Source of the DNA: Gracilibacillus salitolerans
GTDB taxonomy: Bacteria; Bacillota; Bacilli; Bacillales; Amphibacillaceae
Assembly (NCBI RefSeq): GCF_009650095.1
Contig: NZ_CP045915.1
Span: 4,650,001-4,714,000 of the forward strand
Reading direction: 5' to 3'
DNA length: 64,000 nucleotides
The notes under the pieces were generated by a model. It saw only the letters and a list, made by a program, of their open reading frames with translations. It had not been told where the DNA came from and made no database searches. How positions within the stretch are numbered: position 1 is the first letter of the stretch; each line of letters begins with the position of its first letter. The position numbers and the translations under genes are program-made. This document shows, one piece after another, positions 27,120-52,816 of this stretch.

Positions 27120-27584
27120 TTATTTTAATTGTTTCCACACCGATTGGTATACATCTTTAAGCGGAATGTTATGAAGCTTTGCTATCTTTTTACAATCCTC
27201 ATATTCCGGGGATGCTTTGACTACTTTCCCTCTCTGTACACCTTCTTTTACGGTAACAGGTCCCCACTCTGTGTCGACTGTCTTTATGCTTCGCTCCATC
27301 CGGTATACTGTCAACGGATAGTAGCGAATTCCCAAGGTTGTCGTTTCAGATAAAAGGATATCCTTCATTTCTGTTAACCGTGTTTCACTGCATAACAATT
27401 GTAATTGGACAGCAGGGCGATTCTTCTTCATGTAAATAGGTGTGTAATACACATCATTCGCCCCTGCGTCGAACAATTTATCCATCACATAGCCAAGCCA
27501 TTCTCCCGGAGTATCATCCAAGTTCACTTCTATTTTGATCATATTTTGATCCGTATGTTCATGATCTGGCGGGTGTTTGCTCAT
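27120..27584 (-). CDS. larC2: LarC2: C-terminal half of the nickel-pincer cofactor cyclometallase
   Basis: A 154-residue protein equal to the C-terminal domain of LarC, which inserts nickel into the pincer nucleotide of lactate racemase-type enzymes using CTP. Diagnostic blocks are EVNLDDTPGEWLGYVMDKL near residue 18, YTPIYMKKNRPAVQL near 46, LLSETTTLGIRYYP near 78 and KASPEYEDCKKIAKLH near 123. It has its own ribosome site (GAGGTGAAGTTAA), so it is an independent gene. The matching N-terminal half, larC1, lies at 52049-52816 on the same strand, 24 kb away. In Lactobacillus plantarum the two are adjacent and fused by frameshifting. larA, larB and larE are not in the window. Confidence 0.87.
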   Translation of the reverse strand: MSKHPPDHEHTDQNMIKIEVNLDDTPGEWLGYVMDKLFDAGANDVYYTPIYMKKNRPAVQLQLLCSETRLTEMKDILLSETTTLGIRYYPLTVYRMERSIKTVDTEWGPVTVKEGVQRGKVVKASPEYEDCKKIAKLHNIPLKDVYQSVWKQLK

Positions 27585-27671
27585 TTAACTTCACCTCAAG
27601 CCCTTTTCCTATAATACTTTTAAAATAATCATCTATTTTTTAACCACCAAAGTTAACATAATATACGTTTT

Positions 27672-28128
27672 CGATTTGCTTTCTGCCATTCTTTCTGTAG
27701 AGAGTGTTATGTCACCGCTTCGGCAGAATACTGCGCTTTCCGTGGGCTCGGCTTCAGCTAACTTTGCTAAGAAAACCACTTTGCAAAGTGGATCTTCAGC
27801 TCTCGCTGTCCCACAGGAGTCTCCGTATTCTGCCTACGCTAAAAGTGATTCTCTAATTATTGTAAGAATAAAACCCACGGAGCTATATTCTTAAGATTTC
27901 CTCTCACTTAATCAGCGAGCTACTCTAAGCTGCGGAAAAATGCGACACTCCTGTGGGAAAGGAACAGTCTGAAGACCCCGCAGGCAGTGGGGTTCTGCTG
28001 AGGAGGCTGAAGCGTTCCCCACAGGAAAGGGAGTATTTTTCCGCAGCGACGATTTAGCACTCAACTATAATGAGAATGGAAAAAAGCATCACTTCGAAAA
28101 TTTTCACTAGTTCGCAGTTTGTATCTAC
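27672..28128. mobile_element. MITE-like element (copy A), left boundary of the 23 kb segment
   Basis: Reads GATTTGCTTTCTGCCATTCT at the left, two hairpin modules (CGGCAGAATACTGCGC..GTATTCTGCC, then CTGCGGAAAAATGCG..TTTTTCCGCAG) with a conserved linker (GTGATTCTCTAATTATTGTA and onward), and TTTTCACTAGTTCGCAGTTT at the right. It is the reverse complement, along its whole length, of copy B at 51458-51949. The left terminal repeat is decayed. The rest of the 27585-28199 gap shows no gene. Confidence 0.8.
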
Positions 28129-28199
28129 TACTAAAGAAGACTTCATCACTTATAAGGATATAATAAGCACCGTTTTATAAAACTATTACTATCCCGGCT

Positions 28200-28949
28200 T
28201 TACACTTCTGGTAAAATCCGTTTTAGGAATTGTTTTGTTCTGGGCTCTTTTGGTTGTTCCAGTACTTCTTTTGGATCACCTTGTTCGACAATATAACCGC
28301 CATCCATAAAGATGACATGATCGGACACATGTTTAGCGAAAGATACCTCGTGGGTTACGACTACCATGGTCCACCCTTCGTTTGCCAAATCTTTAATAAC
28401 CCCCAACACCTCACCAATTAACTCAGGATCAAGTGCAGATGTCGGTTCATCAAACAACATCAATTCCGGCTCGATTGCAAGTGCACGAGCAATACCGACA
28501 CGCTGTTGCTGACCACCTGATAATTGATGTGGATATAAATCCATCTTATCCTGTAGGCCTACTTTTTCTAATAAACGTTTGGCTTCATCTGTTGCTGTTT
28601 GTTTATCTTTTTTCTGTACGATAACAGGACCTTCTGTTACATTTTCTAATGCGGTCTTATGTGGAAAAAGATTATACGATTGAAAAACCATACCCGATTT
28701 TCTTCTCAATTGGAGCATCTCTCTTTTGCTTAATTTCTCGTTAAAATCTAACGAAAAACCATCATGGAATTGATAATCTCCTTTATTAGGAATTTCCAGA
28801 CCATTTAAACAACGCAGTAAGGTCGTTTTACCAGAACCGGAAGGACCCATTATCGTCACTACTTTTCCTTTTTCAACAGGTAAGTCAATATCCTTAAGAA
28901 CTGTCAATTCACCAAAGCTTTTTTGAAGTCCCTTAATTGATAATAGCAC
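28200..28949 (-). CDS. tcyC: Amino-acid (cystine-type) ABC transporter ATP-binding protein
   Basis: A 249-residue ATPase of the polar amino-acid uptake family. Walker A is GPSGSGKTT near residues 34-42, the signature LSGGQQQR near 143, Walker [14 protein letters not shown] near 160-172 and the switch histidine VVTHE near 200. It starts at GTG 28949 behind AGAGGGGGGATA and is the third gene of an operon after binding protein and permease. Length fits Bacillus TcyC (247). Substrate is inferred from the binding protein. Confidence 0.85.
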
Positions 28950-28961
28950 GCTATCCCCCCT

Positions 28962-30486: not shown

Positions 30487-30564
30487 GTTGATAACCCCCA
30501 GTAATGTTGTCGGTTTTAAACTTTCCTTGCTGATTATACCGCACGCCTTATTTAAAGTAAAACA

Positions 30565-30604: not shown

Positions 30605-30618
30605 CATATTAAATATGC

Positions 30619-31461
30619 TTAGGCTTGCTGGTATTTTTGCCGCAGATACTGAATACTATTATCAATATATGGCTCCTTTGTATTTTCTAATAACACTTCG
30701 ATAAAAGGTTTCTGTTTTTTTAGCAATGCAAATAACAAGTCATAGTTTAACATTCCCTTTCCGGCAGGGACCATCTTGATCCATTTATCCTCTATGATAA
30801 AATCTTTTGCATGAATGGCAACGATTCGATCGCCAAATAATTCAAATGATTCCTCAAAGACCTGTTCTTGGTTATAATAGTTTTCCATCGACATAAAATT
30901 TGCCGGGTCAAAAATGACTTGCAGATGATTAGAATTAACTTCTTCTAATAGTCTTTTCATTTTCTGCGGGGTATGAATCGGATGGTTGATCCCGCCTTCC
31001 ACTCCGACAATGACACCCCATTCCTCCGCTTCATCGGTTAATTCCTTAACACTGTTGACGACTTTCTGAAAACCCTCTTCCGTAAAATTATCTTCCGTAT
31101 ATCCCATTTTCTCATTCACGTTCCCTGTTTCTGATCCAACAATGCTGCAACCAAAGTCTCTAGCAAAACGGATATGCTCTTTGAACCTTGTTAACAGTTG
31201 TTCACGCCTCGTTAGATCAGGATGAATCATATTAATATAACAGCCGAGAACCGCTACATTGACGTTATGTTGTCCGAATGCTTGATTTATATATTTCGCA
31301 TAGCCGGGACTTAATGTACCTGTGTCAGTCGGCAGGTTTTTTAATGATTTGGCTAATGCTAATTGGACAGCATGTAATCCTTTGGAAGATACTTCTGCCG
31401 CTATTTGTTGTGGATCTGTATAGTCAATATCATGACCACGTATTCCCAGGTTTAAATGCAT
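30619..31461 (-). CDS. Sugar phosphate isomerase/epimerase-like TIM-barrel protein
   Basis: A 280-residue protein of the xylose-isomerase-like TIM barrel (AP endonuclease 2) superfamily, which includes IolE, hydroxypyruvate isomerase and ketose 3-epimerases. Metal-ligand candidates are E in IVGVEGGINHP (about residue 152), D and N in VIFDPANFMS (about 186), H in IVAIHAKDF (about 216) and E in FIEVLLENT near 258. The reaction cannot be assigned. It lies just beyond the terminator of the pectin operon and is separated from it by a short MITE fragment ending right before its TTAGGAGG ribosome site. A role in uronate or keto-sugar epimerisation would fit the context but is inference. Confidence 0.75.
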   Translation of the reverse strand: MHLNLGIRGHDIDYTDPQQIAAEVSSKGLHAVQLALAKSLKNLPTDTGTLSPGYAKYINQAFGQHNVNVAVLGCYINMIHPDLTRREQLLTRFKEHIRFARDFGCSIVGSETGNVNEKMGYTEDNFTEEGFQKVVNSVKELTDEAEEWGVIVGVEGGINHPIHTPQKMKRLLEEVNSNHLQVIFDPANFMSMENYYNQEQVFEESFELFGDRIVAIHAKDFIIEDKWIKMVPAGKGMLNYDLLFALLKKQKPFIEVLLENTKEPYIDNSIQYLRQKYQQA

Positions 31462-31476
31462 ATCATCAACCTCCTA

Positions 31477-31606
31477 ATAGATAAAAACTGCGAACTAGTG
31501 AAAATTTTAGGGAGTATTTTTCTGTAGCGACGAACTTACACCCAACTTTTTAAAAATGGAAGAAAGCAAACCCACAAGAGAATTACTTTGCGCACAGTAC
31601 TTTTCG
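31477..31606. mobile_element. Short internally deleted MITE fragment (copy D)
   Basis: Starts TAGATAAAAACTGCGAACTA and ends GAATTACTTTGCGCACAGTA, matching both ends of the MITE at 51458-51949, with AGGGAGTATTTTTCTGTAGCG as the only internal remnant. About 130 bp. It lies directly upstream of the ribosome site of the isomerase-like gene. Confidence 0.7.
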
Positions 31607-31610
31607 ATAA

Positions 31611-31653
31611 AAAAAGACAGTATTCCATTTGTTAAAATGGCCACTGTCTTTTT
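31611..31653 (-). terminator. Terminator of the pectin operon (after kduD)
   Basis: AAAAAGACAGT pairs with ACTGTCTTTTT, and an inner CCATTT/AAATGG stem continues it; on the minus strand it ends in a T-run. It lies seven bases after the kduD stop. Confidence 0.85.
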
Positions 31654-31659
31654 GTAAAA

Positions 31660-32442
31660 TTATCTTGCCAACCAGCCGCCGTCTACTGCCAGGATGTGGC
31701 CGTTCATGTAGTCTGATGCTTTGCTGGACAGGTAGACGACTGTCCCCATTAGATCACTGGGGTTTGCCCAGTAGCCGGCTGGTATTCTCGATAGGATTTC
31801 TGCATTTCGTTGTTCGTTTGAACGGATTGGTGCGGTATTCTTCGTCGCGAAATATCCTGGTGCAATAGCGTTCACTTGTATTCCGTGTTCAGCTAACTCA
31901 TTGGCAAAAGATTTGGTCAAACCAGCCACGGCATGCTTACTGGCGGTGTATGGCGGAATAAATTTACCGCCCTGGAAGGAAAGCATAGATGCAATATTAA
32001 TGATCTTTCCGGAACCTTTCTCAGCCATGACTTTCGCTGCCGCCTGACTCAAGAAGTAGACTGCATCGAGATTTAATGCCATTACATCATCCCAGTCCTC
32101 ATCTTTAAATTCCAATAACGGATTCCGTCTGATTGTACCTGCATTATTAACAAGAATATCTACTGTGCCAAAGGTATCGACGCAAGCTGGAACAACCTTT
32201 TGTAATTGCTCGCGATCCGCCAGATCGGCTTGGAAAAATTCTGTTTTTCCTTCAATATTGTTTAAATACTCTTTTGTTTCATCCCAATTGGTGCCGTGTG
32301 TTACGACAAATACGTTGGCACCAGCCTTGGCTAAAGCTACTGTATAAGCCTGACCAAGTCCCGTGTTCCCGCCTGTAATAATTGCTGTTTTACCTTTTAA
32401 CGAAAAATAATCTAGTGAAAAATCTTGTAAACCTTCACCCAT
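31660..32442 (-). CDS. kduD: 2-dehydro-3-deoxy-D-gluconate 5-dehydrogenase KduD
   Basis: A 260-residue short-chain dehydrogenase. The cofactor loop is ITGGNTGLGQAY near residues 21-32, NNAG near 97-100, the catalytic serine in NIASMLSFQGG near 149 and the YTASK active-site tyrosine and lysine near 162-166. KduD reduces 2,5-diketo-3-deoxygluconate to KDG in unsaturated-uronate breakdown. It follows kduI by 12 bases and is the last gene of the pectin operon, with a strong terminator. The N-terminus LQDFSLDYFSLKGKTAIITGG is typical of KduD from Bacillus. Confidence 0.92.
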   Translation of the reverse strand: MGEGLQDFSLDYFSLKGKTAIITGGNTGLGQAYTVALAKAGANVFVVTHGTNWDETKEYLNNIEGKTEFFQADLADREQLQKVVPACVDTFGTVDILVNNAGTIRRNPLLEFKDEDWDDVMALNLDAVYFLSQAAAKVMAEKGSGKIINIASMLSFQGGKFIPPYTASKHAVAGLTKSFANELAEHGIQVNAIAPGYFATKNTAPIRSNEQRNAEILSRIPAGYWANPSDLMGTVVYLSSKASDYMNGHILAVDGGWLAR

Positions 32443-32454
32443 GAAACATCCTCC

Positions 32455-33285
32455 TTAACGTAATTGATCCATGCTAATATGATCCATATCGGTATACGTA
32501 ATGTTCTCACCACACATACCCCAAATAAAGGTATAGTTACTTGTAGCCGTTCCACAATGGATTGACCAGCTTGGAGAGATAACAGCTTGCTCATTCTTCA
32601 ATATAAGGTGTCTTGTTTCACTTGGTTCACCCATAAAGTGGAATGCACGAGTGTCTTCTGCCATATCAAAATATAGATACACTTCACTTCGACGATCATG
32701 CGTATGAGCTGGCATCGTGTTCCATACACTACCAGGCTGAAGCATAGTTAAGCCCATCTGCAATTGACAGCTCTCACATACATTTGGATGGATGTATTGG
32801 TGAATCTTTCGTTCATTTAAAGTACCTGATTCACCTAATTCTAATGGCTTAATGTCTTTTATATCAATCTTTACAGTAGGATAAGTATGATGTGCTGGTG
32901 ATGATAAGGTATAGAATTTCGCAGGATTAGCTGGATCATTGGAACCGAACCAGACTTCCTTTGTACCACGGCTTACATATAATCCATCGTGACGTTTCAT
33001 ATCATAACGTTCACCATCTAATAGTACGTAGCCATCGTTGCCGATATTAATGATACCTAGTTCCCGACGCTCTAAGAAATAACTTACACCTAACTGTTTA
33101 TCAAGCTTGATTGTCAATTCCTCTGATGCAGGTGTTACACCCCCAAAGATCATCCGATCCACATGTGTATAAGTTAAGTGGACTTTTCCTGCTTCAAATA
33201 ATTTCTCTACCAAAAATTTCTCACGTAACTCATCGGTATTATATCTTCTAATTTCCTCTGGGTGATTGGCATAGCGTAATTCCAT
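32455..33285 (-). CDS. kduI: 5-keto-4-deoxyuronate isomerase KduI
   Basis: A 276-residue double beta-helix (cupin) zinc enzyme that converts 5-keto-4-deoxyuronate to 2,5-diketo-3-deoxygluconate. Zinc ligands lie in MPAHTHDRRSEVYLYF (two histidines and a glutamate, about residues 194-203) and in SWSIHCGTA (about 240-248). Length matches the family (276-278). AAGGAGGAATTAAAA precedes the ATG. It stands between kdgK and kduD, giving the full route from unsaturated uronates to KDG phosphate cleavage. The substrate would come from GH105 action on unsaturated oligosaccharides. Confidence 0.95.
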   Translation of the reverse strand: MELRYANHPEEIRRYNTDELREKFLVEKLFEAGKVHLTYTHVDRMIFGGVTPASEELTIKLDKQLGVSYFLERRELGIINIGNDGYVLLDGERYDMKRHDGLYVSRGTKEVWFGSNDPANPAKFYTLSSPAHHTYPTVKIDIKDIKPLELGESGTLNERKIHQYIHPNVCESCQLQMGLTMLQPGSVWNTMPAHTHDRRSEVYLYFDMAEDTRAFHFMGEPSETRHLILKNEQAVISPSWSIHCGTATSNYTFIWGMCGENITYTDMDHISMDQLR

Positions 33286-33307
33286 TTTTAATTCCTCCTT
33301 GTACTTG

Positions 33308-34297
33308 CTATCTACTAATTTCCTGATTCATACTTGCGCTGAATTGTTCGACTTCTTCAGCAGAAAACACATTGCCATCTCCTTTTATGGTATGTTTCAA
33401 GACAGCATTTGCCGTTGCGAAGGAGACAATCTTTTCCTCTGACCAATTATTCAGAAAACCATAAATAATCCCCGCTGCATAGGCATCCCCCCCACCAATA
33501 CGATCAATTACAGGATCTATCGTGTATTCGATAGACTGCTGAATACGTCCTTTTGTATAGAGGTTTCCTTGTAAAGAATGTTTAGACGAAGATGCTACTT
33601 TTCTTGTAGTGGATGCAAATAATGCAATGTTTGGATATGTATCCTGGATGGTTAGATAATATGCTGTTAAATCATCCTGTTGTTCTATACCCAACAGATA
33701 AACAGCATCCATACTATTACAAAATGCGATATCGACAAAAGGTAACACTTCTTGAATTGCCGCGCTTGCTTGCTTCTGAGACCAAAGTTTGGAGCGGTAG
33801 TTAAAATCAAAGCTAACCTTGATTCCTCTTTGACGTGCTTTCTGCATTGCTCTTCGTGTTATCATCCGTAGCTCTTCAGATAACGCGAGTGTAATTCCTG
33901 TTGTATGAAAAACATCAACACCTTCTAACACCTGGTCCCAATCTATTTCGTCTGATCTGATATTCGCAAAACTAGAAAACTTGCGATCATAGGTTACTTG
34001 ACTGGCACGGTTTCCAAAACCTGATTCTACAAAATAAAGCCCCAAGCGATCTCCGCCATAAACAAGCTCATTGATTTCTACACCGTTTGCTTGCAAATAA
34101 TTTTCACAGGCATTACCAATATTATTTGCAGGCACTTTCGTAATATATCTGCTTGTAATGCCAAGGTTTGCCAATGAAACGGCAACATTTGCTTCTGCGC
34201 CACCATAGTAAAAGTCAAATTGATTGGTTTGCTGCAAATGGACAGTCGGATCTGTTGTTAATCGCAAAAGCATTTCACCAAAAGTTAATACTCTCAT
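33308..34297 (-). CDS. kdgK: 2-dehydro-3-deoxygluconokinase (KDG kinase)
   Basis: A 329-residue PfkB-family kinase that phosphorylates KDG to KDPG. The N-terminal signature FGEMLLRLTTDP and the substrate-binding FYYGGAEANVAVSLANLG near residues 29-46 are typical; the catalytic base lies in DRIGGGDAYAAGIIYG near residue 269. It overlaps the preceding aldolase gene by four bases (ATGA), so the two steps are translationally coupled. Confidence 0.93.
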   Translation of the reverse strand: MRVLTFGEMLLRLTTDPTVHLQQTNQFDFYYGGAEANVAVSLANLGITSRYITKVPANNIGNACENYLQANGVEINELVYGGDRLGLYFVESGFGNRASQVTYDRKFSSFANIRSDEIDWDQVLEGVDVFHTTGITLALSEELRMITRRAMQKARQRGIKVSFDFNYRSKLWSQKQASAAIQEVLPFVDIAFCNSMDAVYLLGIEQQDDLTAYYLTIQDTYPNIALFASTTRKVASSSKHSLQGNLYTKGRIQQSIEYTIDPVIDRIGGGDAYAAGIIYGFLNNWSEEKIVSFATANAVLKHTIKGDGNVFSAEEVEQFSASMNQEISR

Positions 34298-34938
34298 ATA
34301 CTTACCTCTCTTGCTTTTGCCATGTACTCCTTAGCTAGCTCGGTAATTTTCTGATAGTTTCCTTCCTTTGCAGGAGCTACCAGATTTCCGCCCACTCCAA
34401 CTACTATTGCACCATTCTTCAGCCACTCCTGGATATTATCCAAACTGACACCACCAGTAGGCATCATATTAGCTTGAGGAACAGGACCGTGCACCGCTTT
34501 TATAAACCCAGGGCTGATATTGCTTCCTGGAAAGATCTTGACGATATCCGCTCCTGCTTCCATCGCTTCTTTCACCTCTGTAACGGTTAAACAGCCGGGA
34601 AAATAAGGAACTTGATACAAGTTACATAGTTTAGCAGTATCTGCATCAAACGAAGGTCCGACGATAAACGACGCTCCTGCAAAAATAGCTTGCCTTGCTG
34701 TGTAGGCATCTAATACAGTACCTACTCCAATGGTCACTTCACTATCATCCTGATAATCAGTCTGTAATTGTTCGACAGCGTTTTCTACATTCGGTATCGA
34801 GTAGGTTAACTCAATCTGTTTCATACCACCTGCAATACAAGCATCGGCAACTTTTATCGCTTGCGCTACCGAGTCGGTTCGAATTACTGCGACAACTTTC
34901 TGTTGCTCAAGATTTTGCAAAACGGATAATTTCTTCAC
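34294..34938 (-). CDS. kdgA: KDPG (bifunctional 4-hydroxy-2-oxoglutarate) aldolase
   Basis: A 214-residue class I aldolase that splits KDPG into pyruvate and glyceraldehyde 3-phosphate. The Schiff-base lysine lies in GADIVKIFPGS near residue 134; ELTYSIPNVENAV near 40 and GVGTVLDAYTARQAI near 73 complete the family pattern, and the phosphate loop is PTGGVSLDNI near 162. Translation starts at GTG 34938, overlapping the esterase stop (GTGA), behind GAGGTGA. Named eda in many genomes. Confidence 0.92.
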   Translation of the reverse strand: MKKLSVLQNLEQQKVVAVIRTDSVAQAIKVADACIAGGMKQIELTYSIPNVENAVEQLQTDYQDDSEVTIGVGTVLDAYTARQAIFAGASFIVGPSFDADTAKLCNLYQVPYFPGCLTVTEVKEAMEAGADIVKIFPGSNISPGFIKAVHGPVPQANMMPTGGVSLDNIQEWLKNGAIVVGVGGNLVAPAKEGNYQKITELAKEYMAKAREVSI

Positions 34939-35627
34939 AGACTCACCTCATTTCGTTTCACCAGAGAAGCCAATGGATGTTTAATCCGGATTAACTCTTT
35001 TACAAATAATCGACAATGCTGATGGGCTCCTCTTTCATGTAAATGAGTATTATCAACTGCCCCGTCAGGATATGCTTCGTACTCACCCGGTTCCAGTCTC
35101 ATAAACCATTCTTTAGATTTTTCATCACCTAGCTCTTGTAACGCTTCTCTAGTAAGGGTAAGCATATCGATACAAACTACTTCTTCCTTTTCCGCCAGCT
35201 CTCTGACAGCTTGCGGATAATCACCGTGTGTTTCTTGCAAATGACCATTCTCATCAAAATGTCTTCGGGCTATCGATGTTAAAAGAATTGGTGTAACACC
35301 GAAAGCACGTGAGCGTTGAATAAAAAATCGCAAATTATCCTGATAACTTGTATAAGGATTCGTCGCCCGTTCCTCGTCAGGCTTTTGATCATTGTGACCA
35401 AACTGAATCAGGACATAATCACCTGCTTGAAATTCCTTTTCGATTGCATCCCAGCGTTCTTCCGCAATAAAGGACTTGCTACTGCGACCTGATGCTGCAT
35501 GGTTGCGAACGATTAGCTCATCTGTGAAATAATGCCCTAGCGTTTGCCCCCAACCCATTTGCGGATATTTAAATGTTTCAGCTGTCGCCATGGTAGAATC
35601 TCCTGCTAACAATAAACGTGATGACAT
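34935..35627 (-). CDS. rhgT: Rhamnogalacturonan acetylesterase (SGNH hydrolase, RhgT-like)
   Basis: A 230-residue SGNH/GDSL esterase without a signal peptide, so it acts in the cytoplasm on imported oligosaccharides. Block I is LLAGDSTMA (Ser near residue 11), block II NHAASGRSSKSF near 43, block III IQFGHNDQKPDEE near 75 and block V DNTHLHERGA (Asp and His near 192-195). The layout matches Bacillus RhgT/YesT, which removes acetyl groups from rhamnogalacturonan. Its ATG overlaps the GH105 stop codon (TAATG). It thus works together with the adjacent GH105 enzyme. Confidence 0.88.
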   Translation of the reverse strand: MSSRLLLAGDSTMATAETFKYPQMGWGQTLGHYFTDELIVRNHAASGRSSKSFIAEERWDAIEKEFQAGDYVLIQFGHNDQKPDEERATNPYTSYQDNLRFFIQRSRAFGVTPILLTSIARRHFDENGHLQETHGDYPQAVRELAEKEEVVCIDMLTLTREALQELGDEKSKEWFMRLEPGEYEAYPDGAVDNTHLHERGAHQHCRLFVKELIRIKHPLASLVKRNEVSL

Positions 35628-36721: not shown

Positions 36722-36726
36722 CCTTC

Positions 36727-39788: not shown

Positions 39789-39799
39789 TTCATCCACCT

Positions 39800-40111
39800 C
39801 TAATCTAGTAAATCTTCTCTTAATGGTGTGAACACATCTAAGAGTTTACTTTTAGTTAATGCCTTGACACCGTGTACAGCGTTGGACGGGATTCGAAGAG
39901 AATCTCCCTTTTCGACGATGATTTCTTTTCCATCGACATGAAAGGCCAGTTGACCTTCTAAACAATAGGTTAATTGTTCATGTGGATGGCTGTGGGAAGA
40001 TCCTTCTGCACCCTCCTCAAACGATACTTCCATCATCATTAGTTGCTCTCCTGGTGCATGAATTTTTCTTGTAACTCCTGGTTCTGCCTGTTCCCAATTG
40101 TTAACAGCCAT
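39800..40111 (-). CDS. kdgF: KdgF-like cupin (unsaturated uronate linearisation)
   Basis: A 103-residue single-domain cupin. SHSHPHEQLTYCLEGQLAFHVDG near residues 38-60 holds the metal-binding His-x-His and Glu, and the second cupin motif is PSNAVHGVKAL near 76. KdgF enzymes help turn the cyclic 4,5-unsaturated uronate into the linear keto form used by KduI. Its position in an operon with kduI, kduD, kdgK and kdgA supports this role. The start overlaps the MFS stop codon by one base. Confidence 0.82.
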   Translation of the reverse strand: MAVNNWEQAEPGVTRKIHAPGEQLMMMEVSFEEGAEGSSHSHPHEQLTYCLEGQLAFHVDGKEIIVEKGDSLRIPSNAVHGVKALTKSKLLDVFTPLREDLLD

Positions 40112-41310: not shown

Positions 41311-41325
41311 CGATCGAATCAAGCT

Positions 41326-42471: not shown

Positions 42472-42495
42472 GAAAACGACTCCTCTTGAATAGAA

Positions 42496-43374: not shown

Positions 43375-43400
43375 TTTTTCACCTCACCTATTGTTGTCTA

Positions 43401-44363
43401 TTAATAGATACCCTCTTCATTGAATCTCTTCGCTAACCAGTTGGCAAATACTACCATCACAAGTCCGACAGCCCCTTTAAAGAAACCAACCGCGGTACTG
43501 TAACTAAATTGCCCTTGTTGCAAACCGGCAACATAGACATACGTATCAAAAATTTCAGCTACATTCCGGTTAGATGAGTTCAATAATAAATAAACATGTT
43601 CAAAACCTAACTCTAAAACATCACCTATTTTTAAAATTAACAATACGATTATAACGTTACGAATCGCCGGTAAAGTAATGTGCCACATTTGTCGGAATCG
43701 GTTGGCCCCGTCCATTCTTGCAGCTTCGTACAACTGCGGGTCCACTGCTGTAATCGCCGCCAAGAAGATAATGGTCCCCCATCCAGCTTCTCGCCAGATA
43801 ACTTGCAAAATATACATCGGTCGGAACCAATCATCATTTAAAAGGAAGTTAATTTTCTGGAAACCAAAACTCTCTATAATAGCGTTTACAATTCCGCCAT
43901 CAAGAGTCAGCATCACATAACTGATCGAAACAATAACCACCCACGACATAAAGTGTGGTATATAGATAAGAGTCTGTACACCTCGTTTAAAAAAGCTATG
44001 TCGAACTTCATTAAGCATTAACGAAATAATAATCGGAATTGGAAAGAAAACAAAGATCTGTAAAGCAAATAAAACCAATGTATTCTTAAAGATCATCCAA
44101 AATTCAGAACTCGCAAATAACCGATTAAAGTGTTCAAATCCAACCCATTCACTACCTCCAATCCCCATATATGGCTTATAATCTTGAAATGAAATGATTA
44201 AGCCATACATCGGTAAATACTTATAAATGAGGAAGTAAAGTAAACCTGGCAGAATCATTAGATAAAGCAATCTATTCCGTTTGATTTTTCGCCATGTTTC
44301 TGATCGTTTCATTTTTCTAACTTGTTTTGTTTCTTCTTTTGCAGTTAATGTAGTTGTTCCCAT
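43401..44363 (-). CDS. yteP: Oligosaccharide ABC transporter permease (YteP/LplB-like)
   Basis: A 320-residue permease, partner of the following YtcP-like protein. After a charged cytoplasmic N-terminus (residues 1-30) come six helices; the docking loop is YEAARMDGANRFRQMWHITLPAI near residue 210 and the C-terminus NWLAKRFNEEGIY is the LplB/YteP signature. Length equals Bacillus YteP (321). It lies 248 bases downstream of the nearest binding-protein gene, behind a structured spacer that may lower its expression relative to the lipoproteins. Confidence 0.88.
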   Translation of the reverse strand: MGTTTLTAKEETKQVRKMKRSETWRKIKRNRLLYLMILPGLLYFLIYKYLPMYGLIISFQDYKPYMGIGGSEWVGFEHFNRLFASSEFWMIFKNTLVLFALQIFVFFPIPIIISLMLNEVRHSFFKRGVQTLIYIPHFMSWVVIVSISYVMLTLDGGIVNAIIESFGFQKINFLLNDDWFRPMYILQVIWREAGWGTIIFLAAITAVDPQLYEAARMDGANRFRQMWHITLPAIRNVIIVLLILKIGDVLELGFEHVYLLLNSSNRNVAEIFDTYVYVAGLQQGQFSYSTAVGFFKGAVGLVMVVFANWLAKRFNEEGIY

Positions 44364-44399
44364 AAGCAGAATCCTTTCTTTTAAAATTCATTTGTAAAT

Positions 44400-44605
44400 G
44401 TTGTCTTAACAAAATCCTACGTCATTGGTTATATAACGTAAATAATCATTATCTTACGAGTTGCCATTCCTATTATGGAATAGTCTTTTCTTCATATATT
44501 TGTTTTCAATAAGCAACTAACATAACATAATGATCATCTCCTATTCATACAACCTGACAGATATGGGTTGGGCCCTTAAAATGATTCACCCTAAGAGCCC
44601 TTGTT
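44400..44605 (-). ncRNA. Structured 3' spacer after the first binding-protein gene (duplicate 1)
   Basis: Holds a long inverted pair, AATAATCATTATCTTACGAG at 44441 with GCAACTAACATAACATAATG at 44513, and a stem GGGCCCTTA/TAAGAGCCC at 44570-44600. The same architecture recurs at 46268-46483 after the second binding-protein gene. On the minus strand no T-run follows, so it looks like an RNA 3'-end stabiliser or processing site rather than a plain terminator. Confidence 0.5.
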
Positions 44606-44611
44606 CTACTA

Positions 44612-46108
44612 TCATTCAGATGCGTTAAATTCTTCGATAATCGCATCTCCACCTTGCGATTTCCAGTTTTCAACTGCATCATCAAAGCCTGCTTCATCCA
44701 TTTGACCAATAATATAGTTATATGTTGCGTCTGTAATAATTTCCTGAAGTCTCGCACCATCATCCACATATGTCTTTGAATATAGTGGTACTGTTGGATC
44801 CTCAATTAAATAATCTTCATTTTCTTTTGTTAACTCTTCAGCTTTCTCTTTTGCATCATAATTAAATACAGACTCATAACGCCCGTTTGTTTCAGGCTCG
44901 CCAATCCCTATCGCCATATATGGTTTTACTTCTCTATCCGTTAAGGCTTTGTCATCTGACGGCAAAGCGCGATCATCGACAACCTCATAATGCTCACCTT
45001 CAATACCCCAATAAGAATAGTTCGCTATTTCTGGCGTCATCATTTGGTTGAAGAAATCTAAGATGTTTAATAATTCTTCCTCTGTTTCTACAGAGCTTTT
45101 CGGGAACATCACTAAACTCCCATAACCAGGAATTGACCAAACTCCAAATTCACCATCTGGTCCAGCGATCTTGTTCTGCACATCGAATTCTACATCAGGA
45201 TTTATCGCTATTGCGTCATTATTTAAACTAACTACATCACCCATGGAACCTACATACATTCCAGCTGTTCCATTTTTAAAGAATTCTTGCTGGTCCGTTT
45301 TGCTTGTTACAGGAAAATCTTGATTGATATAACCGTTATCATACATTTCCTTAAAGAAATCCAGCGTTTCTTTATATTCATCAAACATAAACTCTGGCAT
45401 TAGTTTTCCGTCCTTCTCCCCCCAGTTATTTGGTGTACCAAACCAGGAAGCAACAGTTTTAAATGCACCGTATACTAAATCACTACGGTCAGTTAAACCA
45501 AATGTGTCGTCCTCACCACTTTGATTAGGATCATCTTCCGTAAAAGCTCTTGCCATTTCCATAAATTCATCTGTTGTTGTCGGCACCTCTAAACCAAGAT
45601 TTTCAGCCCAATCCTTGCGATAAATAAGACCTTGACTGGATAAAGGACGTCCTTGATATAACGTATATAGGTTGCCATTTATCCGCGTGTTATCTAATAC
45701 GGTGTCTTTTAATTTCGCTAGATTCTCAAATTCATCCAAATATTGTCCAACTTCCCAGAACTGTTCATCTTCAATTGCATCGCGGAATTGAATAAATGAT
45801 GCTTGGTTTTTTAGGAAAACTGCTTCTGGTAATGAATTTGTTGCAAATGCCGTATTTAATCGGTCTTCATAATTGTTATCTGGTACCCATTGGATTTCAA
45901 TTTCTTTGTCGGTCTCTTCTTCAATTATTTCTAAAATTTTGTCGTTTGGTACTTCTGGTGAATGTAAGTTAGCCATGACCGTAAATGAATCGCCGTCACC
46001 TGAACCACCAGTTCCTTCACTTGATGCACTATCACTACTACAACCAGCAAAAACTAAAAGCGATAGAAGTAATACTGTAATTAGTTTCTCTTTTTTCCAA
46101 TTAATCAA
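44612..46108 (-). CDS. ytcQ: Oligosaccharide-binding lipoprotein (YtcQ/LplA-like), copy 1
   Basis: A 498-residue family 1 solute-binding lipoprotein; lipobox LVFAGC near residues 18-23, then a Ser/Gly-rich linker. MANLHSPEVPNDKILE begins the binding domain. Length equals Bacillus YtcQ. The start is TTG 46108 in MINWKKEK, with AAAGGATGG upstream; the in-frame ATG nine bases earlier lies in that site, and the second copy has the homologous TTG start. It is highly similar, over its entire length, to the next gene upstream (46484-48037): both end EEFNASE, and spacers and leaders are duplicated too. Confidence 0.86.
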   Translation of the reverse strand: MINWKKEKLITVLLLSLLVFAGCSSDSASSEGTGGSGDGDSFTVMANLHSPEVPNDKILEIIEEETDKEIEIQWVPDNNYEDRLNTAFATNSLPEAVFLKNQASFIQFRDAIEDEQFWEVGQYLDEFENLAKLKDTVLDNTRINGNLYTLYQGRPLSSQGLIYRKDWAENLGLEVPTTTDEFMEMARAFTEDDPNQSGEDDTFGLTDRSDLVYGAFKTVASWFGTPNNWGEKDGKLMPEFMFDEYKETLDFFKEMYDNGYINQDFPVTSKTDQQEFFKNGTAGMYVGSMGDVVSLNNDAIAINPDVEFDVQNKIAGPDGEFGVWSIPGYGSLVMFPKSSVETEEELLNILDFFNQMMTPEIANYSYWGIEGEHYEVVDDRALPSDDKALTDREVKPYMAIGIGEPETNGRYESVFNYDAKEKAEELTKENEDYLIEDPTVPLYSKTYVDDGARLQEIITDATYNYIIGQMDEAGFDDAVENWKSQGGDAIIEEFNASE

Positions 46109-46132
46109 ATAAACCATCCTTTAGTATTATTT

Positions 46133-46146
46133 TTGTTGTACAACAA
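46133..46146. promoter_or_regulatory. 14-bp palindrome TTGTTGTACAACAA upstream of copy 1 lipoprotein
   Basis: A perfect palindrome 25 bases upstream of the coding start. The related sequence TTTTTTGTACAACAACATC occurs at the same place before the second lipoprotein gene (about 48060-48078). It may be a regulator site or a remnant of duplicated leader sequence. Confidence 0.4.
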
Positions 46147-46267
46147 TGCCTCGAAGTATAGATTAATATAGCAAGCATCTAACGACTATCTTTATTTAAT
46201 AGATACTATAACACTATAAAGAGACGAACTTTGGTAAGTAGAATACTTTCTTTTTATATTCGATTAT

Positions 46268-46483
46268 GCATTGTTGCTTTAACAAAATCCTACTTTATAG
46301 GGTATATAACGTAAATAATCATTATCTTACGAGTTGCTTTCCATGGTGTTGTATAGGTTTTGGTTTTCATTTCTGTTTTATATAAGCAACTAACATAACA
46401 TAATGATCATCTCCCATTCATACAACCTTACAGATATAGGTTGGGCTCTTAAAATGAGTATTTTAAGAGCCCATTTACTATTA
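46268..46483 (-). ncRNA. Structured 3' spacer after the second binding-protein gene (duplicate 2)
   Basis: Duplicate of 44400-44605. Inverted pair at 46314-46337 and 46385-46410, plus a perfect 12 bp stem GGGCTCTTAAAA with its complement at 46443-46472 directly after the stop. The rest of the 46109-46483 gap holds no gene. Confidence 0.55.
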
Positions 46484-48037
46484 TCATTCGGATGCGTTAA
46501 ATTCCTCGATAATCGCTTCTCCACCTTGAGATTCCCAATTCTCTACTGCATCATCAAAACCAGCTTCATCAATTTGCCCTAAAATATATTGATAAGTTGC
46601 ATCTATGATGATTTCTTGAAGTCTTGCACCATCATTTACGTATGTCTCAGAATAAAGTGGTACAGTAGGATCTTCGATTAAATAGTTCTCATTATCTTTA
46701 AACAATTCTTCTGATTTAGCTTTCACATCATAATCGAAGTAACCTTCATAGCGACCGTTTGTTTCTGGTTCGCCGATTTCAATAGCTTGGTAAGGTTTTA
46801 CTTCTCGATCAAACAATGACTGATCATCTGTTGGTTGAGCACTATCTTCAATGACTTCATAATGCTCTCCTTCAATACCCCAATAAGCATAATTTATTAC
46901 TTCTGGTGTCATTAATTGATCAAAGAATCCTAAGATTTTCTTTAAATCTTCTTCTGATTCAATAGAGCTTTTCGGGAACATTACTAAACTACCATAACCT
47001 GGGATAGCCCATACACCAAACTCCCCATCCGGTCCTTCAATATGGTTATGCACATCAAATTCTACATCTGGGTTAATAGCTACTGCATCATTATTTAGAC
47101 TACCAACATCACCCATGGAACCAACATACATACCTGCAGTTCCGTTTTTAAAGAATTCTTGTTGATCTGTTTTACTAGTTACAGGAAAGTCTTGATTAAT
47201 GTATCCGTTTTCATGCATTTCTCTAAAGAATTCCATTGTTTGTTTATATTCATCGAACATAAACTCAGGTAATAGTTGACCATCTTGTTCTCCCCATTCG
47301 TTCGGAGTACCAAACCAGGAAGATACTGTTTTGAATGCACCATAAATTAAATCACTACGATCTGTAACACCAAATGTATCATCTTCACCATTTCCATCTG
47401 GATCATCTTCCGTAAACGCTCTTGCCATTTCCATAAATTCTTCTGTTGTAGTCGGTTCTTCTAATCCAAGATTATCAGCCCAATCTTTACGATAGATTAA
47501 ACCTTGTCTTGATAAAGGACGACCTTGATATAATGTGTATAAATTGCCATTTACTCTCGTATTATCAAGTACATTTTCTTTTAATTTAGACAAATTTTCA
47601 AACTCATCTAAATATTGTCCTACTTCCCAGAACTGTTCATCTTCCATTGCATCACGGAACTGAATAAACGTTGCCTGGTTTTTCAAGAACACTGCCTCAG
47701 GTAAAGAATTGGTTGCAAATGCTGTGTTTAATCGATCTTCATAGTTATTATCTGGTACCCATTGAATTTCGATATCTGTATTAGTTGCTTCCTCAATCTT
47801 TTCTAATACTTTTTCATTAGGTACTTCTGGTGTGTGTAAGTTTGCCATAATCGTAAATGAATACGCTTCTCCCGAATCTGCCTCCTCTTCATCAGTGTCA
47901 TTTGTTTCTTCTTGAGAAGTGTCATCTTCAGATGCACTATTGTCTCCACCTTCAGTCGTGCTATCACTACTACATGCAGCTAATACTACAAATAATAGTA
48001 AGAACATGATTCCCATTAGTTTTTTCCAATTACTCAA
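46484..48037 (-). CDS. Oligosaccharide-binding lipoprotein (YtcQ/LplA-like), copy 2
   Basis: A 517-residue lipoprotein, first gene of the pectin operon. Lipobox VVLAAC near residue 20, a linker richer in Asp/Glu/Thr than in copy 1, then the same binding domain (MANLHTPEVPNEKVLE, FKNGTAGMYVGSMGD, IPGYGSLVMFPKSS). The start is TTG 48037 behind GGAGGGTGG; an in-frame ATG far upstream at 48118 would give a non-signal N-terminus. Copies 1 and 2 are tandem duplicates that may have diverged in ligand choice or may simply raise dosage. A cre site and inverted repeat lie about 100 bases upstream. Confidence 0.86.
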   Translation of the reverse strand: MSNWKKLMGIMFLLLFVVLAACSSDSTTEGGDNSASEDDTSQEETNDTDEEEADSGEAYSFTIMANLHTPEVPNEKVLEKIEEATNTDIEIQWVPDNNYEDRLNTAFATNSLPEAVFLKNQATFIQFRDAMEDEQFWEVGQYLDEFENLSKLKENVLDNTRVNGNLYTLYQGRPLSRQGLIYRKDWADNLGLEEPTTTEEFMEMARAFTEDDPDGNGEDDTFGVTDRSDLIYGAFKTVSSWFGTPNEWGEQDGQLLPEFMFDEYKQTMEFFREMHENGYINQDFPVTSKTDQQEFFKNGTAGMYVGSMGDVGSLNNDAVAINPDVEFDVHNHIEGPDGEFGVWAIPGYGSLVMFPKSSIESEEDLKKILGFFDQLMTPEVINYAYWGIEGEHYEVIEDSAQPTDDQSLFDREVKPYQAIEIGEPETNGRYEGYFDYDVKAKSEELFKDNENYLIEDPTVPLYSETYVNDGARLQEIIIDATYQYILGQIDEAGFDDAVENWESQGGEAIIEEFNASE

Positions 48038-48146
48038 ATTAACCACCCTCCAGAATCTTATTTTTTGTACAACAACATCTTGCCGTGTACAATTTAATAG
48101 TAAGAAATAGATAAGCATTTGTATATAATCACTTTTTCACAGTGAT

Positions 48147-48325: not shown

Positions 48326-48403
48326 ATTTACTATTTACGGAATGTGAATAACAAGGTATCCTATTATATAATAGCATTTAATTTACAGAATTAGGTGGGT
48401 TTT

Positions 48404-49063: not shown

Positions 49064-49108
49064 CGCTATTCATCTGTTTAAAATATATCGATTAAGGAAG
49101 TTATGTCT

Positions 49109-51412
49109 ATGAAAAAATTCTCTACTCAACATTATTTTAAACTGATAGCATTTTTAGTTATCTTAAGTACAGTTCCTGTTGTTATTACTGGTGGATTATC
49201 TTATTGGCAATCATCTAAGGCAATTGTGGATTATTCCAATGACGAAAAAAAGCAAAATATTTATCAAATACAAACTAACGTGGAACAAGTATTAAAATAT
49301 ATTGATCTATCTACGACCTATTTTGTGCGTTCAGCTCAAACACAGGAATTTTTAAAAGGAGATATGAATGGTAAGTCTTTTAGTGATTTTCATAAGTTAA
49401 GGAAAGACTTAAATCATTTACAAACAATAGATACGGGAATTGAAGATGTTATATTAGTAAGTTTCGATAAGAGATGGCTCATAAATAACGATGGTTTAGT
49501 GCATCTTGATAATCAAGCTTATGAACAAATAAACACAAACTATTTAAACTTACCCGAGAAATCTGTTTGGCTAATGGAAGAAGCAAATCAGATACATTTA
49601 CCGAATGCTACAAAAAGAAGCTGTTCTCATTATATTAATTTAGTGAAAAAACTGCCGATCTTATCATCACAACCAGATGGTCTTATATCCATTATTGTCC
49701 CTACTTGTGAATTGAATGAAATCATGGCGCAAAGTAATGACAGTGAATCATTTATTATTTTAGATGATAATAATCAGACGATTGCCCACAGTAATGCGGA
49801 GTACACTGGAGAAGATGGATATATCCCGAATAATTTGTTTAATATGATAGATCGAAATGAATTAGAAGGCCAATTTGAGTATCAAATTAATGGAACAGAT
49901 TTTAAAATCTCTTATCAAACTTCAGAATATAATGATTGGACTTATCTTTCTTTGGTGAAATTAAGTGACTTGCATATGAAATCAAGCTCTATCGGTTGGT
50001 TAACGGTCTTAATTGTTTCGATATTGCTAATTATTTCATTATGCATTGCCTTTATTGGCAGCAAAGTTTTATATAAACCAGTCAAAAAATTAAAAAGCGT
50101 GATAGATTCTTCAAGTGAAGGTAAGACTGTATCCGGAAATACTACTAATGAATTCGATTTAATCGAGACACATATTGAAAAATTATTAAATCAAAATCAT
50201 TTGTTAGAAAAGCGTGTCCAAAGTCAGGTTACACAGTTAAAACAACTTTTCATGATTCGATTATTACAAGGAAAAGTAACGAATAGCGAACTTCCGCTTA
50301 AAGTGAAATCCTTTAACTATAACCAGAATTGGACAGGGTTAACGGTCTTTTCATTAAAATTAGATGAAATTGACCAGGAAAAATTTAATAAAAATGATCA
50401 GGATTTGATTCTATTTGCGATTAACAATTTAATTGAGGATCTTATTCCAAGCCAGGAACGTTTTACTCCTGTGGTAATTAATGACACCCAATCCACTCTT
50501 ATTATAACGGAGTGTGACAATGAATCTGATTATACCCATATAATTAATCAGAAGGTGAAACTAATCCAGACCAAAGTGATGGAGTTATTCCACCTGTCAG
50601 TCAGCATCGGTATCAGCAACCGTTTCAACGAACTAGAAGAGTCAGATACAGCTTTTAAAGAAAGTAAAGAAGCATTAAAATATCGCCTAAAAATGGGCGA
50701 GTCTTCGATTATTTTCTATGAAAATCTTAATAGGCGCTACTCTAGTGTTGCACCGTATCCGACAGCAATTAAAAATAAAATTTTTGATGCTATTAAGTTA
50801 AGTGATAGAGAACATGCCTTAACTGAGATTGCCAAGTTTTTTGAATATCTGGATCGCCACGATATTCACCATCAACAGCTAGAAATTATCTTATCCAGGT
50901 TCTTATATGAATTATATGAATTAAAAGAATTGCTTGGTGCCCATGTTGAAGACTTCCAATCAACTGATATGATTACGTATTATCAAAACTTAAACTCGAT
51001 TGAAGCGATTCATGACTGGGTCAGCGATCACATTATCTTTCCTCTTATCGAGAGTATTGATGCTAAAGATGATTCAAAGAACAAGAAAATTTCGGATAAA
51101 ATGATTCGAATTATTCATGAGGATTATAATAAAGACATTTCACTTGATGTGATTGCAGCCGAGGTACACTATAATCCAAATTATTTAAGCAGTATTTTCC
51201 AAAAGGAAACAGGATACTCTTTTAGTGAATATTTACTTCGTTATCGACTTAACAAAGCGAAAGAATGGCTCACGACAACTAATATGTCAGTAAAAGAGAT
51301 TGCTGAAAAATTACAGTATAATAATTCTCAGAACTTTATCCGTTCCTTTAGAAAAATGGAAGAAATCACCCCAGGTAAATACCGGGCACAATATAAAAGT
51401 AAAGAAGCATAA
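49109..51412 (+). CDS. yesS: Membrane-bound AraC-family regulator (YesS/YtdP-like)
   Basis: A 767-residue transcription factor with an N-terminal helix (about residues 12-32), an extracytoplasmic sensor region (about 35-290), a second helix (about 293-317), a cytoplasmic linker and a C-terminal AraC/XylS DNA-binding domain (about 665-765: DISLDVIAAEVHYNPNYLSS, then SVKEIAEKLQYNNSQNFIRS). YesS and YtdP of Bacillus (about 761-772 residues) share this layout and activate rhamnogalacturonan genes; here it should sense oligosaccharides outside the cell and activate the divergent operon. ATG 49109 is preferred with AAGGAAG eight bases upstream; ATG 49103 is too close. Confidence 0.88.
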   Translation: MKKFSTQHYFKLIAFLVILSTVPVVITGGLSYWQSSKAIVDYSNDEKKQNIYQIQTNVEQVLKYIDLSTTYFVRSAQTQEFLKGDMNGKSFSDFHKLRKDLNHLQTIDTGIEDVILVSFDKRWLINNDGLVHLDNQAYEQINTNYLNLPEKSVWLMEEANQIHLPNATKRSCSHYINLVKKLPILSSQPDGLISIIVPTCELNEIMAQSNDSESFIILDDNNQTIAHSNAEYTGEDGYIPNNLFNMIDRNELEGQFEYQINGTDFKISYQTSEYNDWTYLSLVKLSDLHMKSSSIGWLTVLIVSILLIISLCIAFIGSKVLYKPVKKLKSVIDSSSEGKTVSGNTTNEFDLIETHIEKLLNQNHLLEKRVQSQVTQLKQLFMIRLLQGKVTNSELPLKVKSFNYNQNWTGLTVFSLKLDEIDQEKFNKNDQDLILFAINNLIEDLIPSQERFTPVVINDTQSTLIITECDNESDYTHIINQKVKLIQTKVMELFHLSVSIGISNRFNELEESDTAFKESKEALKYRLKMGESSIIFYENLNRRYSSVAPYPTAIKNKIFDAIKLSDREHALTEIAKFFEYLDRHDIHHQQLEIILSRFLYELYELKELLGAHVEDFQSTDMITYYQNLNSIEAIHDWVSDHIIFPLIESIDAKDDSKNKKISDKMIRIIHEDYNKDISLDVIAAEVHYNPNYLSSIFQKETGYSFSEYLLRYRLNKAKEWLTTTNMSVKEIAEKLQYNNSQNFIRSFRKMEEITPGKYRAQYKSKEA

Positions 51413-51414
51413 GA

Positions 51415-51445
51415 AAACCGGGCAGCCTGAGCCGCCCGGTTTTTC
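51415..51445 (+). terminator. Terminator after the yesS-like gene
   Basis: AAACCGGGC pairs with GCCCGGTTT around a 10-base loop, followed by a T-run, directly after the stop codon. Confidence 0.85.
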
Positions 51446-51457
51446 TGTGTTTTGATT

Positions 51458-51949
51458 CGATATAGATAAAAACTGCGAACTAGTGAAAATTCAGATTTGC
51501 TCTCTTCCATTCTGATTATTGTTGAGAGCTAATTCGCCGCTGCGGAAAAAATACTCGCTTTCCGTGGGGAACGCTTCAGCCTCCTCGGAAGCCAAAACCG
51601 CTTCCAGTGGGGTCTTCAGACTGTTCCTTTCCCACAGAAGTCTCGCATTTTTTCCGCAGCTTAGAGTAGCTTACTGATTAAGTGAGAGGAAATCCTAAGA
51701 ATATAATTCCGTGGGTTTTATTCTTACAATAATTAGAGAATCACTTTTGGCGTAGGCAGAATACGCAGACTCCTGTGGGAACAGCACAAGCTGAAGACCC
51801 CGCAGAAAAGCGACTTTGCTTTTTGAGGAGGCTGATGCCGTGCCCACGGAAAGCGAAGTATTCTGCCGGAGCGGTATGCCAGTACTCTCTAGAGCAGAAT
51901 GGAAGAAAGCAAATCCACATGACAGTTACTTCGCAGTTTATGTATATCG
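51458..51949. mobile_element. MITE-like element (copy B), right boundary of the 23 kb segment
   Basis: The best-preserved copy, 492 bp. Ends CGATATAGATAAAAACTGCG and, inverted, CGATATACATAAACTGCGAA. Two internal hairpin modules (CTGCGGAAAAAATACTCGC..TTTTTTCCGCAG and GGCAGAATACGCAG..GTATTCTGCC) are joined by a linker containing AAGAATATAATTCCGTGGG. It is inverted relative to copies A and C. No coding capacity and no clear target-site duplication. The rest of the 51413-52048 gap contains only the yesS-like terminator and about 100 bases next to larC1 without visible features. Confidence 0.8.
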
Positions 51950-52048
51950 CGCTTGGATTATATGCAAGGGTACTTGAGGCTAGGAATATGCTAGAGGCCA
52001 TGGAAAGCTCGTATATATTCCATCTTCTGGCCAAGCGAGGCCCCCTCT

Positions 52049-52816
52049 TTAATTTTCACCGATTATTACTCTTAATACGTTGGGGTGATTTTTAAATGTT
52101 TTTGTTCCTGCACCATAGCCTATTTTTTCTACTTTGATGTTTGGCATTGTAGAAAAATCATCTGCTAGTGTCTTGATAATGGCTGCTCCTGTAGGGGTTG
52201 TTAATTCCCCTTTTACTTTGCTTTCTTTTAATGGAATACCTTTTAACACTTCCAATGTTGCTGGTGCAGGAACAGGATATACACCATGATCAATATGTAT
52301 GTGTCCAGATCCGACCGGCACAGCAGAAGATACAATCCGATCAATTTGTAATTCATCTATCAGTATCGCAGTACCAACAATATCTATAATCGAATCGATT
52401 GCACCAACTTCATGGAAATGTACATTATCCAACTCCATTCCATGTATTTTTGCCTCCGCTTCACCTATCACACGGAACATTTCTAAAGACATTTTTTTCA
52501 CCGCATCGTTTAGTTTACTATCGTCAATAAGTTTGACAATGTCTTTATATTGCCGGTGATGGTGAGAATGATCGTGATCATGACTATGTCCATGGTGATG
52601 GTGGTGATGCCCTTCATCGTAGTTCACATCGAACTTATTACTATTAATTCCGTTCTTTACTATTTTATCTAGCTTTAATTGATACTCTTTATCTAAATGT
52701 AATGCCTTTAGCTGATTCTCAAACCACTTCATAGAGATTCCAGTATCCAATAGAGCTGCAATAGTCATATCTCCGCTTATCCCGGAAAAACAGTCAAAAT
52801 ACATAATTTTAGGCAT
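52049..52816 (-). CDS. larC1: LarC1: N-terminal half of the nickel-pincer cofactor cyclometallase
   Basis: A 255-residue protein equal to the N-terminal domain of LarC. Diagnostic blocks are YFDCFSGISGDMTIAALLD near the start, a histidine-rich nickel-binding stretch (about residues 68-88, alternating His with Gly, Ser and Asp), VHFHEVGAIDSIIDIVGTA near 133, and TPTGAAIIKTLADDF near 209. It stops after NHPNVLRVIIGEN, where the LarC2 part would begin. The C-terminal half is encoded separately at 27120-27584. Start: ATG 52816 with GGAGGAGA upstream; an ATG 15 bases earlier lies within that site. It follows araN after a terminator, so it is probably a separate transcript. Confidence 0.88.
   Translation of the reverse strand: MPKIMYFDCFSGISGDMTIAALLDTGISMKWFENQLKALHLDKEYQLKLDKIVKNGINSNKFDVNYDEGHHHHHHGHSHDHDHSHHHRQYKDIVKLIDDSKLNDAVKKMSLEMFRVIGEAEAKIHGMELDNVHFHEVGAIDSIIDIVGTAILIDELQIDRIVSSAVPVGSGHIHIDHGVYPVPAPATLEVLKGIPLKESKVKGELTTPTGAAIIKTLADDFSTMPNIKVEKIGYGAGTKTFKNHPNVLRVIIGEN

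Follow-up and report, generated by a model that had tools for sequence, protein, structure and literature searches.

Two larC genes flanking a pectin island in Gracilibacillus salitolerans: probable subunits of an ancient two-polypeptide LarC

The rare organometallic cofactor NPN (nickel-pincer nucleotide) receives its nickel from LarC, a cytidine triphosphate (CTP)-dependent enzyme that in many bacteria is one protein; the route of LarC to the nickel-carbon bond is, to our knowledge, still being worked out. In a stretch of 64,000 nucleotides from Gracilibacillus salitolerans (NCBI RefSeq assembly GCF_009650095.1, contig NZ_CP045915.1, positions 4,650,001 to 4,714,000; hereafter the window), the two parts of LarC are encoded by separate genes, larC1 and larC2, with a gene cluster for pectin use between them. 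Is this a freshly broken gene, interrupted by the cluster as a sequence-only reading of the same DNA had suggested, or an enzyme that is made in two pieces? We consider it very probable that the products of larC1 and larC2 are the two subunits of an ancient two-polypeptide LarC, the neighbours of which have been reshuffled.

The larC1 gene (52049..52816, minus strand) is a complete open reading frame (ORF) for the N-terminal part of the nickel-pincer cofactor cyclometallase, starting at an ATG at 52816 with GGAGGAGAG just upstream; the alternative ATG at 52831, the pick of the ORF listing, has no ribosome site of similar quality. On the same strand, larC2 (27120..27584) encodes the C-terminal part, with its own ribosome site (GAGGTGA, 6 nt ahead of the start) and an N-terminal HPPDHEHTDQNM tail (H10, D12, M15). 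Together the two genes cover PF01969 once, larC1 accounting for positions 1-235 (322 bits) and larC2 for positions 239-375 (173 bits), and both domains exceed the curated NCBIfam cut-offs (LarC1 232 bits, cut-off 90; LarC2 154 bits, cut-off 50). The intervening segment measures 24,464 bp. The outline drawn by the sequence-only reading is thereby borne out: colinear halves on the minus strand, about 24.5 kb apart with the pectin island between them, a cut at the end of the N-terminal part of LarC and, with two complete ORFs that have their own starts, two separate polypeptides. They are the only PF01969 matches in the whole genome (one contig of 5.09 Mb, 99.7% complete), a profile search of which returned no second, full-length LarC. 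The search for larA, larB and larE that had been proposed found matches of all three types on this contig, at 1.535-1.540 Mb, the activity of LarB being that of P2CMN synthase, while the larC pair lies at 4.677-4.703 Mb. LarC1 furthermore carries a His-rich stretch (52550-52612, 13 His in 21 residues); LarC1 lengths among relatives range from about 240 to more than 340 codons, by eye mostly owing to this stretch.

The order of the domains, LarC1 then LarC2, is that of Lactobacillus plantarum, in which full-length LarC is made by frameshifting. Window LarC2 matches 6bwo (107 bits), a crystallised LarC2-only chain that we take to be from L. plantarum and whose sequence is 93% identical to our L. 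plantarum locus (L146). That this organism solves the problem differently, as had been claimed, is however correct: in L146 larC1 finishes at ten consecutive A's, and the frame of LarC2 lacks both a start codon ahead of its core and an HxD tail, whereas the window larC2 is a gene with its own start and ribosome site, 24 kb off, and does not conform to the frameshift type. In this comparison, for which 26 of 78 loci were read, 14-50 in-frame codons precede the LarC2 core in 20 of the 22 Lactobacillaceae loci read; the other two (L157, L165) have 274 codons and look one-piece. Against one-piece LarC (PDB 12bi-12bl, a 414-residue chain), window LarC1 corresponds to residues 20-254 and LarC2 to residues 263-403, placing the cut in a stretch of about 8 residues between the aligned parts of what is there a single chain. 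The window protein also passes the cut-off of the NCBI model 'nickel pincer cofactor biosynthesis protein LarC2' (NF052512), a name carried by some stand-alone records from Gracilibacillus, Oceanobacillus, Aquibacillus and Neobacillus, so that stand-alone LarC2 is not new as a protein. Compared by annotation alone, Anaerobutyricum likewise has larC1 and larC2 as two genes (EHLA_1342/EHLA_1341), there under consecutive locus tags; PMC7702098 describes its lar set as encoded in a scattered way and gives larC2 the name of a different enzyme, P2CMN synthase. In the open-licence literature on LarC we found no description of a single-origin fission, a two-gene clade, the HxD tail or the gene order.

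The split is the rule among the relatives. In the family Amphibacillaceae, PF01969 occurs in 50 of 159 genomes, and one-piece LarC in none of the 50; both halves are present in 49, and the remaining genome (73% complete) has larC1 only. The spacing varies widely: more than 8 kb on the same strand (n=20), 2-8 kb (n=9), 0.3-2 kb (n=16), opposite strands (n=2), different contigs (n=1) and 169 bp (n=1, G015), two larC1 pieces in G001, and likewise in G004, being taken as one place each. Within Gracilibacillus, LarC1 is found in 17/17 genomes, LarC2 also in 16/17 and one-piece LarC in 0/17, and 13 of the 16 pairs lie 11-24.5 kb apart on the same strand, the others being G015 (169 bp) and the opposite-strand pairs of G002 and G012. 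In the latter two, larC1 runs on the other strand from larC2 and the island, and a pair of additional ORFs (about 463 and 310 codons) lies next to it. In an evenly spread sample of the order, 91 of 397 genomes have PF01969; counted among the matches listed, these comprise 25 with a full-length match without a stop, 8 with a full-length match containing stops and 58 with partial matches only, and two of the eight (G307, G412) proved on reading to be two adjacent genes. In a sample of the class (110 of 398 genomes with PF01969) split pairs are also present, some on opposite strands. Open frames of 727-780 aa had raised the candidate of a LarC1-X-LarC2 fusion, which we rejected, as reading of the five loci showed larB standing between separate ORFs. 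LarC2 was also seen in larger proteins, after a ~170-residue unknown domain in G877 (L144:2651-3613) and, in G742 (L141:444-1571), preceding a YfiT-family bacillithiol transferase domain.

The age of the division was assessed in a tree of joined LarC1 and LarC2 with 33 two-gene and 26 one-piece rows. The 59 rows were drawn from 77 (22 of 40 family pairs, 16 pairs from outside the family, 35 of 120 one-piece matches and 4 one-piece loci) after removal of 18 (13 fused, 5 split). The two-gene form is one clade (support 100/96), recovered in 200 of 200 bootstrap trees examined, and the window LarC places with split, not one-piece, LarC; the root was put on six distant one-piece sequences, and which state came first depends on it. 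We read this as a single division of larC, older than the family and long before the genus, that would have taken place in an ancestor of many Bacillales or Bacilli. Since the split predates the family, the pectin island did not create it, contrary to the proposal that an inserted segment had produced the two halves.

Gene order points the same way. Among the 16 compact loci (gap of 0.3-2 kb), all ten that were read have larE-larC1-larB-larC2. In 13 family loci (G027, G028, G032, G067, G079, G080, G081, G088, G109, G152-G155) and in G202 of another family, a LarA-group-22 homologue (larA22), a short-chain dehydrogenase/reductase (SDR), an FGGY kinase and larB stand between larC1 and larC2. G109 joins both contents, in the order larC1 - island - larA22 - SDR - kinase - larB - larC2 - larE, with an island of the same kind as that of the window, while G030 divides its genes over two contigs, one with island-larA22-SDR-larE and one with larC1-kinase-larB-larC2. 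The arrangement with the island but no larA block between the halves is that of the genus, and G119, from another genus, shares it. In G000, G005 and G015, the genus loci that were read completely, larA22-SDR-larE-kinase-larB lies away from larC; in G000 it is at about 1.535-1.540 Mb (L078:6981-12209). LarA-, LarE- and LarB-type matches occur in 17/17 genus genomes, on one contig and within ~6 kb in 16/17. The larE of the genus is 77-78% identical to those of G032 and G202, versus 42-47% to other larE.

Aggregated, larC1 and larC2 appear to be the fixed ends of the locus and the contents between them to have been exchanged, an operon turned inside out, with its end genes kept and its middle swapped. 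Some relatives have larC1 and larC2 in a lar operon with larB, and others have the catabolic block of LarA group 22, SDR, sometimes LarE, and FGGY kinase between the two genes as well. As for the order of moves, we infer that in the ancestry of the genus the pectin/rhamnogalacturonan island came between larC1 and the catabolic block, after which the block and larB would have been moved or replaced elsewhere, leaving larC1 and larC2 around the island.

The best surviving alternative, albeit an unlikely one, is the proposal of the sequence-only reading that a contiguous larC1-larC2 pair was recently interrupted by insertion of the island. The halves are indeed colinear, copies of a repeat mark both junctions, and in G015 larC1 and larC2 are 169 bp apart without an island. 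Of the 16 genus genomes with both halves, 15 nevertheless have a full or shortened island in between, as does G119, and, G119 apart, the loci read outside the genus contain either larB or a larA block there, which speaks against an uninterrupted pair as the ancestral state. G015 bears out in part the prediction of an uninterrupted pair between araN and azoR: the pair is there without the island, but is followed by homologues of the regulator at 22861, UxaE and UxaC rather than by azoR. As G015 nests within the island-bearing genus in the LarC tree (10-row clade, 95/93), its close pair looks best read as derived, and an approximately unbiased (AU) test rejects a grouping of the 15 island rows without G015 (p = 0.0147), the tested group having been named after the tree was seen and G015 sitting on a long branch. 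Elsewhere in its genome, G015 has orthologues of the island genes.

The junction repeats give the insertion little help. A dispersed ~410-bp repeat has one copy between larC2 and an ATP-binding cassette (ABC) transporter (27680..28100) and a second, inverted and 84% identical, between larC1 and an AraC-type regulator (51498..51908), with partial copies near 20818-21129 and 25105-25235. It is imperfectly palindromic, apparently non-coding and has at least 78 matches genome-wide, a lower bound from scoring 40 of 130 candidate places. Being such a genome-wide family, with the two junction copies inverted, it was rejected as the cause of an insertion; recombination between inverted copies inverts rather than inserts. 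The ends of the island thus carry dispersed repeat copies, and no integrase or transposase was found among the family-scanned island proteins, five island ORFs lying outside the scan.

Do the two chains then form one enzyme, or has each become an enzyme in its own right, with a different role? The latter is improbable in our view. The genes are separate and at times on opposite strands, LarC2 is joined to other domains in G742 and G877, and the tail motif is, among the sequences scored, confined to LarC2-only proteins; on the other side, the halves co-occur in 49/50 LarC-bearing family genomes, and each passes the cut-off of its own domain model. Selection is consistent with function: over 8 genome pairs each, the ratio of nonsynonymous to synonymous substitution rates (dN/dS) is 0.09-0.18 for larC1 and 0.03-0.10 for larC2, compared with 0.005-0.15 for three island genes over 7 or 8 pairs. 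The idea that the NPN system is decaying, with larC a split pseudogene kept by inertia, draws on the frame-shifted larC1 of two draft genomes but is hardly credible against such strong purifying selection (0.03-0.18), two complete window ORFs with ribosome sites and LarA-, LarE- and LarB-type matches throughout the genus (LarE and LarB being in pieces in G001). We take the two-chain LarC to be functional, LarC1 and LarC2 probably associating after translation to supply NPN to a LarA-group-22 enzyme.

Several observations weigh against an ancient two-polypeptide LarC with reshuffled neighbours. The two-gene rows of the tree all come from the Bacilli, whereas two-gene LarC is also annotated outside them, e.g. 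in Anaerobutyricum. The LarA-22 tree joins the genus with G155/G032/G202/G152-154 (86/85), the family LarC tree with G027/G028/G109 (96/92), and in the 59-row LarC tree the sister group of the genus combines the other family members with some genomes from other families; the family LarC trees comprise 40 of the 50 LarC-bearing genomes, with G004 (larC1 broken), G008 (no larC2) and eight loci set aside. Given this moderate conflict between the LarA-22 and LarC trees, the genus block may have been either relocated or replaced. In addition, larC1 is frame-broken in the draft genus genomes G001 and G004. In G001, larE, larB and uxuA are broken as well, which suggests assembly error, whereas in G004 larE and larB are intact although larC1 is broken. 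The full-length LarC structures found (12bi-12bl) are all one-chain, and the tail counts given below rest on matches skewed to close relatives.

A sequence mark accompanies the two-gene form. Stand-alone LarC2 proteins carry HPPxxEHxDxxM, or a variant of it, directly before their LarC2 core. Of 1186 stand-alone LarC2 matches, the best 120 include 112 with EHxD, and the other eight read HxDxxM by eye; H10, D12 and M15 are invariant in 40/40 aligned sequences (the window and 39 of the 120). By contrast, EHxD occurs in 0 of 109 scored linkers of one-piece LarC, 11 of the 120 having been left out where the core-start pattern was absent. In the family (n=41), 37 LarC2 have EHxD, G011 and G016 have QHxD, and the tails of G067 and G080 were left unjudged owing to the start codon picked. 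Outside the family, EHxD is found in 16/16 read, including the divergent G209, G434, G742 and G877, with M at the last motif place in 15/16 and T in G311. The window protein has the tail of the two-gene clade. A predicted model of LarC2 folds alone with a predicted local distance difference test score (pLDDT) of 91.8; a strand (residues 10-23) starts at the motif, and the mean pLDDT rises from 64 for residues 1-10 to 93 for residues 11-20. The tail may serve in docking or in metal binding, and would have been gained at the division or, alternatively, already have been there before a fusion.

More tentatively, at somewhat short of an even chance, we propose that a large part of the Bacilli possesses an obligate two-subunit LarC of single origin, in which the HxDxxM tail replaces the lost linker (as a docking element or as a nickel/CTP-metal ligand), and that separate synthesis let the genes drift tens of kb apart so as to bracket an unrelated sugar island. 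The HxDxxM tail is a testable marker of two-chain LarC among the sequences examined, and a natural two-chain LarC has its domains cleanly separated, each open to titration, mutation and reconstitution. Conversely, bacteria with larC2 distant from larC1 should not be scored as being without LarC.

What the cofactor may be for is suggested by the remaining NPN genes in this genome (L078), which score above their cut-offs: LarB (307 bits, cut-off 175), LarE (376, cut-off 150) and an NPN isomerase of group 22 (544, cut-off 400). The SDR of the block is nearest D-mannonate oxidoreductase, just below the cut-off (279 bits versus 281), and the kinase nearest gluconokinase, well below it (467 versus 648). 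The NCBIfam name 'group 22' specifies no substrate, and the LarA of this genome has no PDB relative at E 0.001, so that a substrate is not assignable by structure. PMC7583248 assigns mannonate/gluconate epimerisation to LarA groups 19 and 20 and suggests a hexonate as the substrate of group 18. UxaC, UxaE, KduI and KduD are all within the window, and the larA22 block likely contributes a hydroxy-acid step in uronate use, its LarA probably epimerising a uronate-derived hydroxy acid. The larA22-SDR-larE-kinase-larB block is a candidate uronate or hexonate pathway needing the NPN cofactor. NPN as the sole mannonate route was considered and rejected; a full-length uxuA is present in this genome (16/17 genus genomes match above cut-off), and the LarA block need not be the only exit.

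The genes around larC1 and larC2 agree with the earlier outline of the island and its flanks, for those covered by the family scans; five island ORFs, including 42496-43374 and 43401-44363, lay outside the scans. Adjoining the 3' side of larC1 is the regulator with an AraC-type C-terminal domain (49103..51412, plus strand, below family cut-offs), which in all 14 further genus genomes that bear the island again comes first among the island genes following larC1, extra genes intervening in some. The 5' side of larC2 adjoins an amino-acid-type ABC transporter ATPase (28200-28949), followed by ORFs judged by eye to be ABC permease-like (28962-29675) and binding-protein-like (29650-30486), all on the minus strand. 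The pectin/rhamnogalacturonan and unsaturated-uronate cluster as a whole spans 30619..48118, likewise on the minus strand, and comprises KduD (31660-32442), KduI (32455-33285), a PfkB-type kinase (33308-34297), a 2-keto-3-deoxy-6-phosphogluconate (KDPG)-type aldolase (34294-34938), a GDSL esterase-like protein (34935-35627), GH88 (35627-36730), a weakly arabinanase-like protein (36727-38295), GH28 (38295-39797), a major facilitator superfamily (MFS) transporter (40111-41322) and a weakly sugar-binding-protein-like ORF (44612-46117). Directly beyond larC2 lies azoR (26320..26964, minus strand) for an FMN-dependent NADH-azoreductase, identified by family scan, and further out the uronate isomerase UxaC (19346-20746) and the tagaturonate epimerase UxaE (21231-22721), both on the minus strand, whose homologues several relatives have behind larC2 or behind the lar block. 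Directly before larC1 is a gene for a sugar-binding lipoprotein (52923..54257, minus strand), called araN earlier, with its best match below the cut-off; between the two, a pattern match points to a terminator-like hairpin of 12 pairs with a T-rich tail (52884..52912, minus strand). Apart from this locus, the window holds a thiamine pyrophosphate (TPP) riboswitch (RF00059, 78 bits) at 2694-2809.

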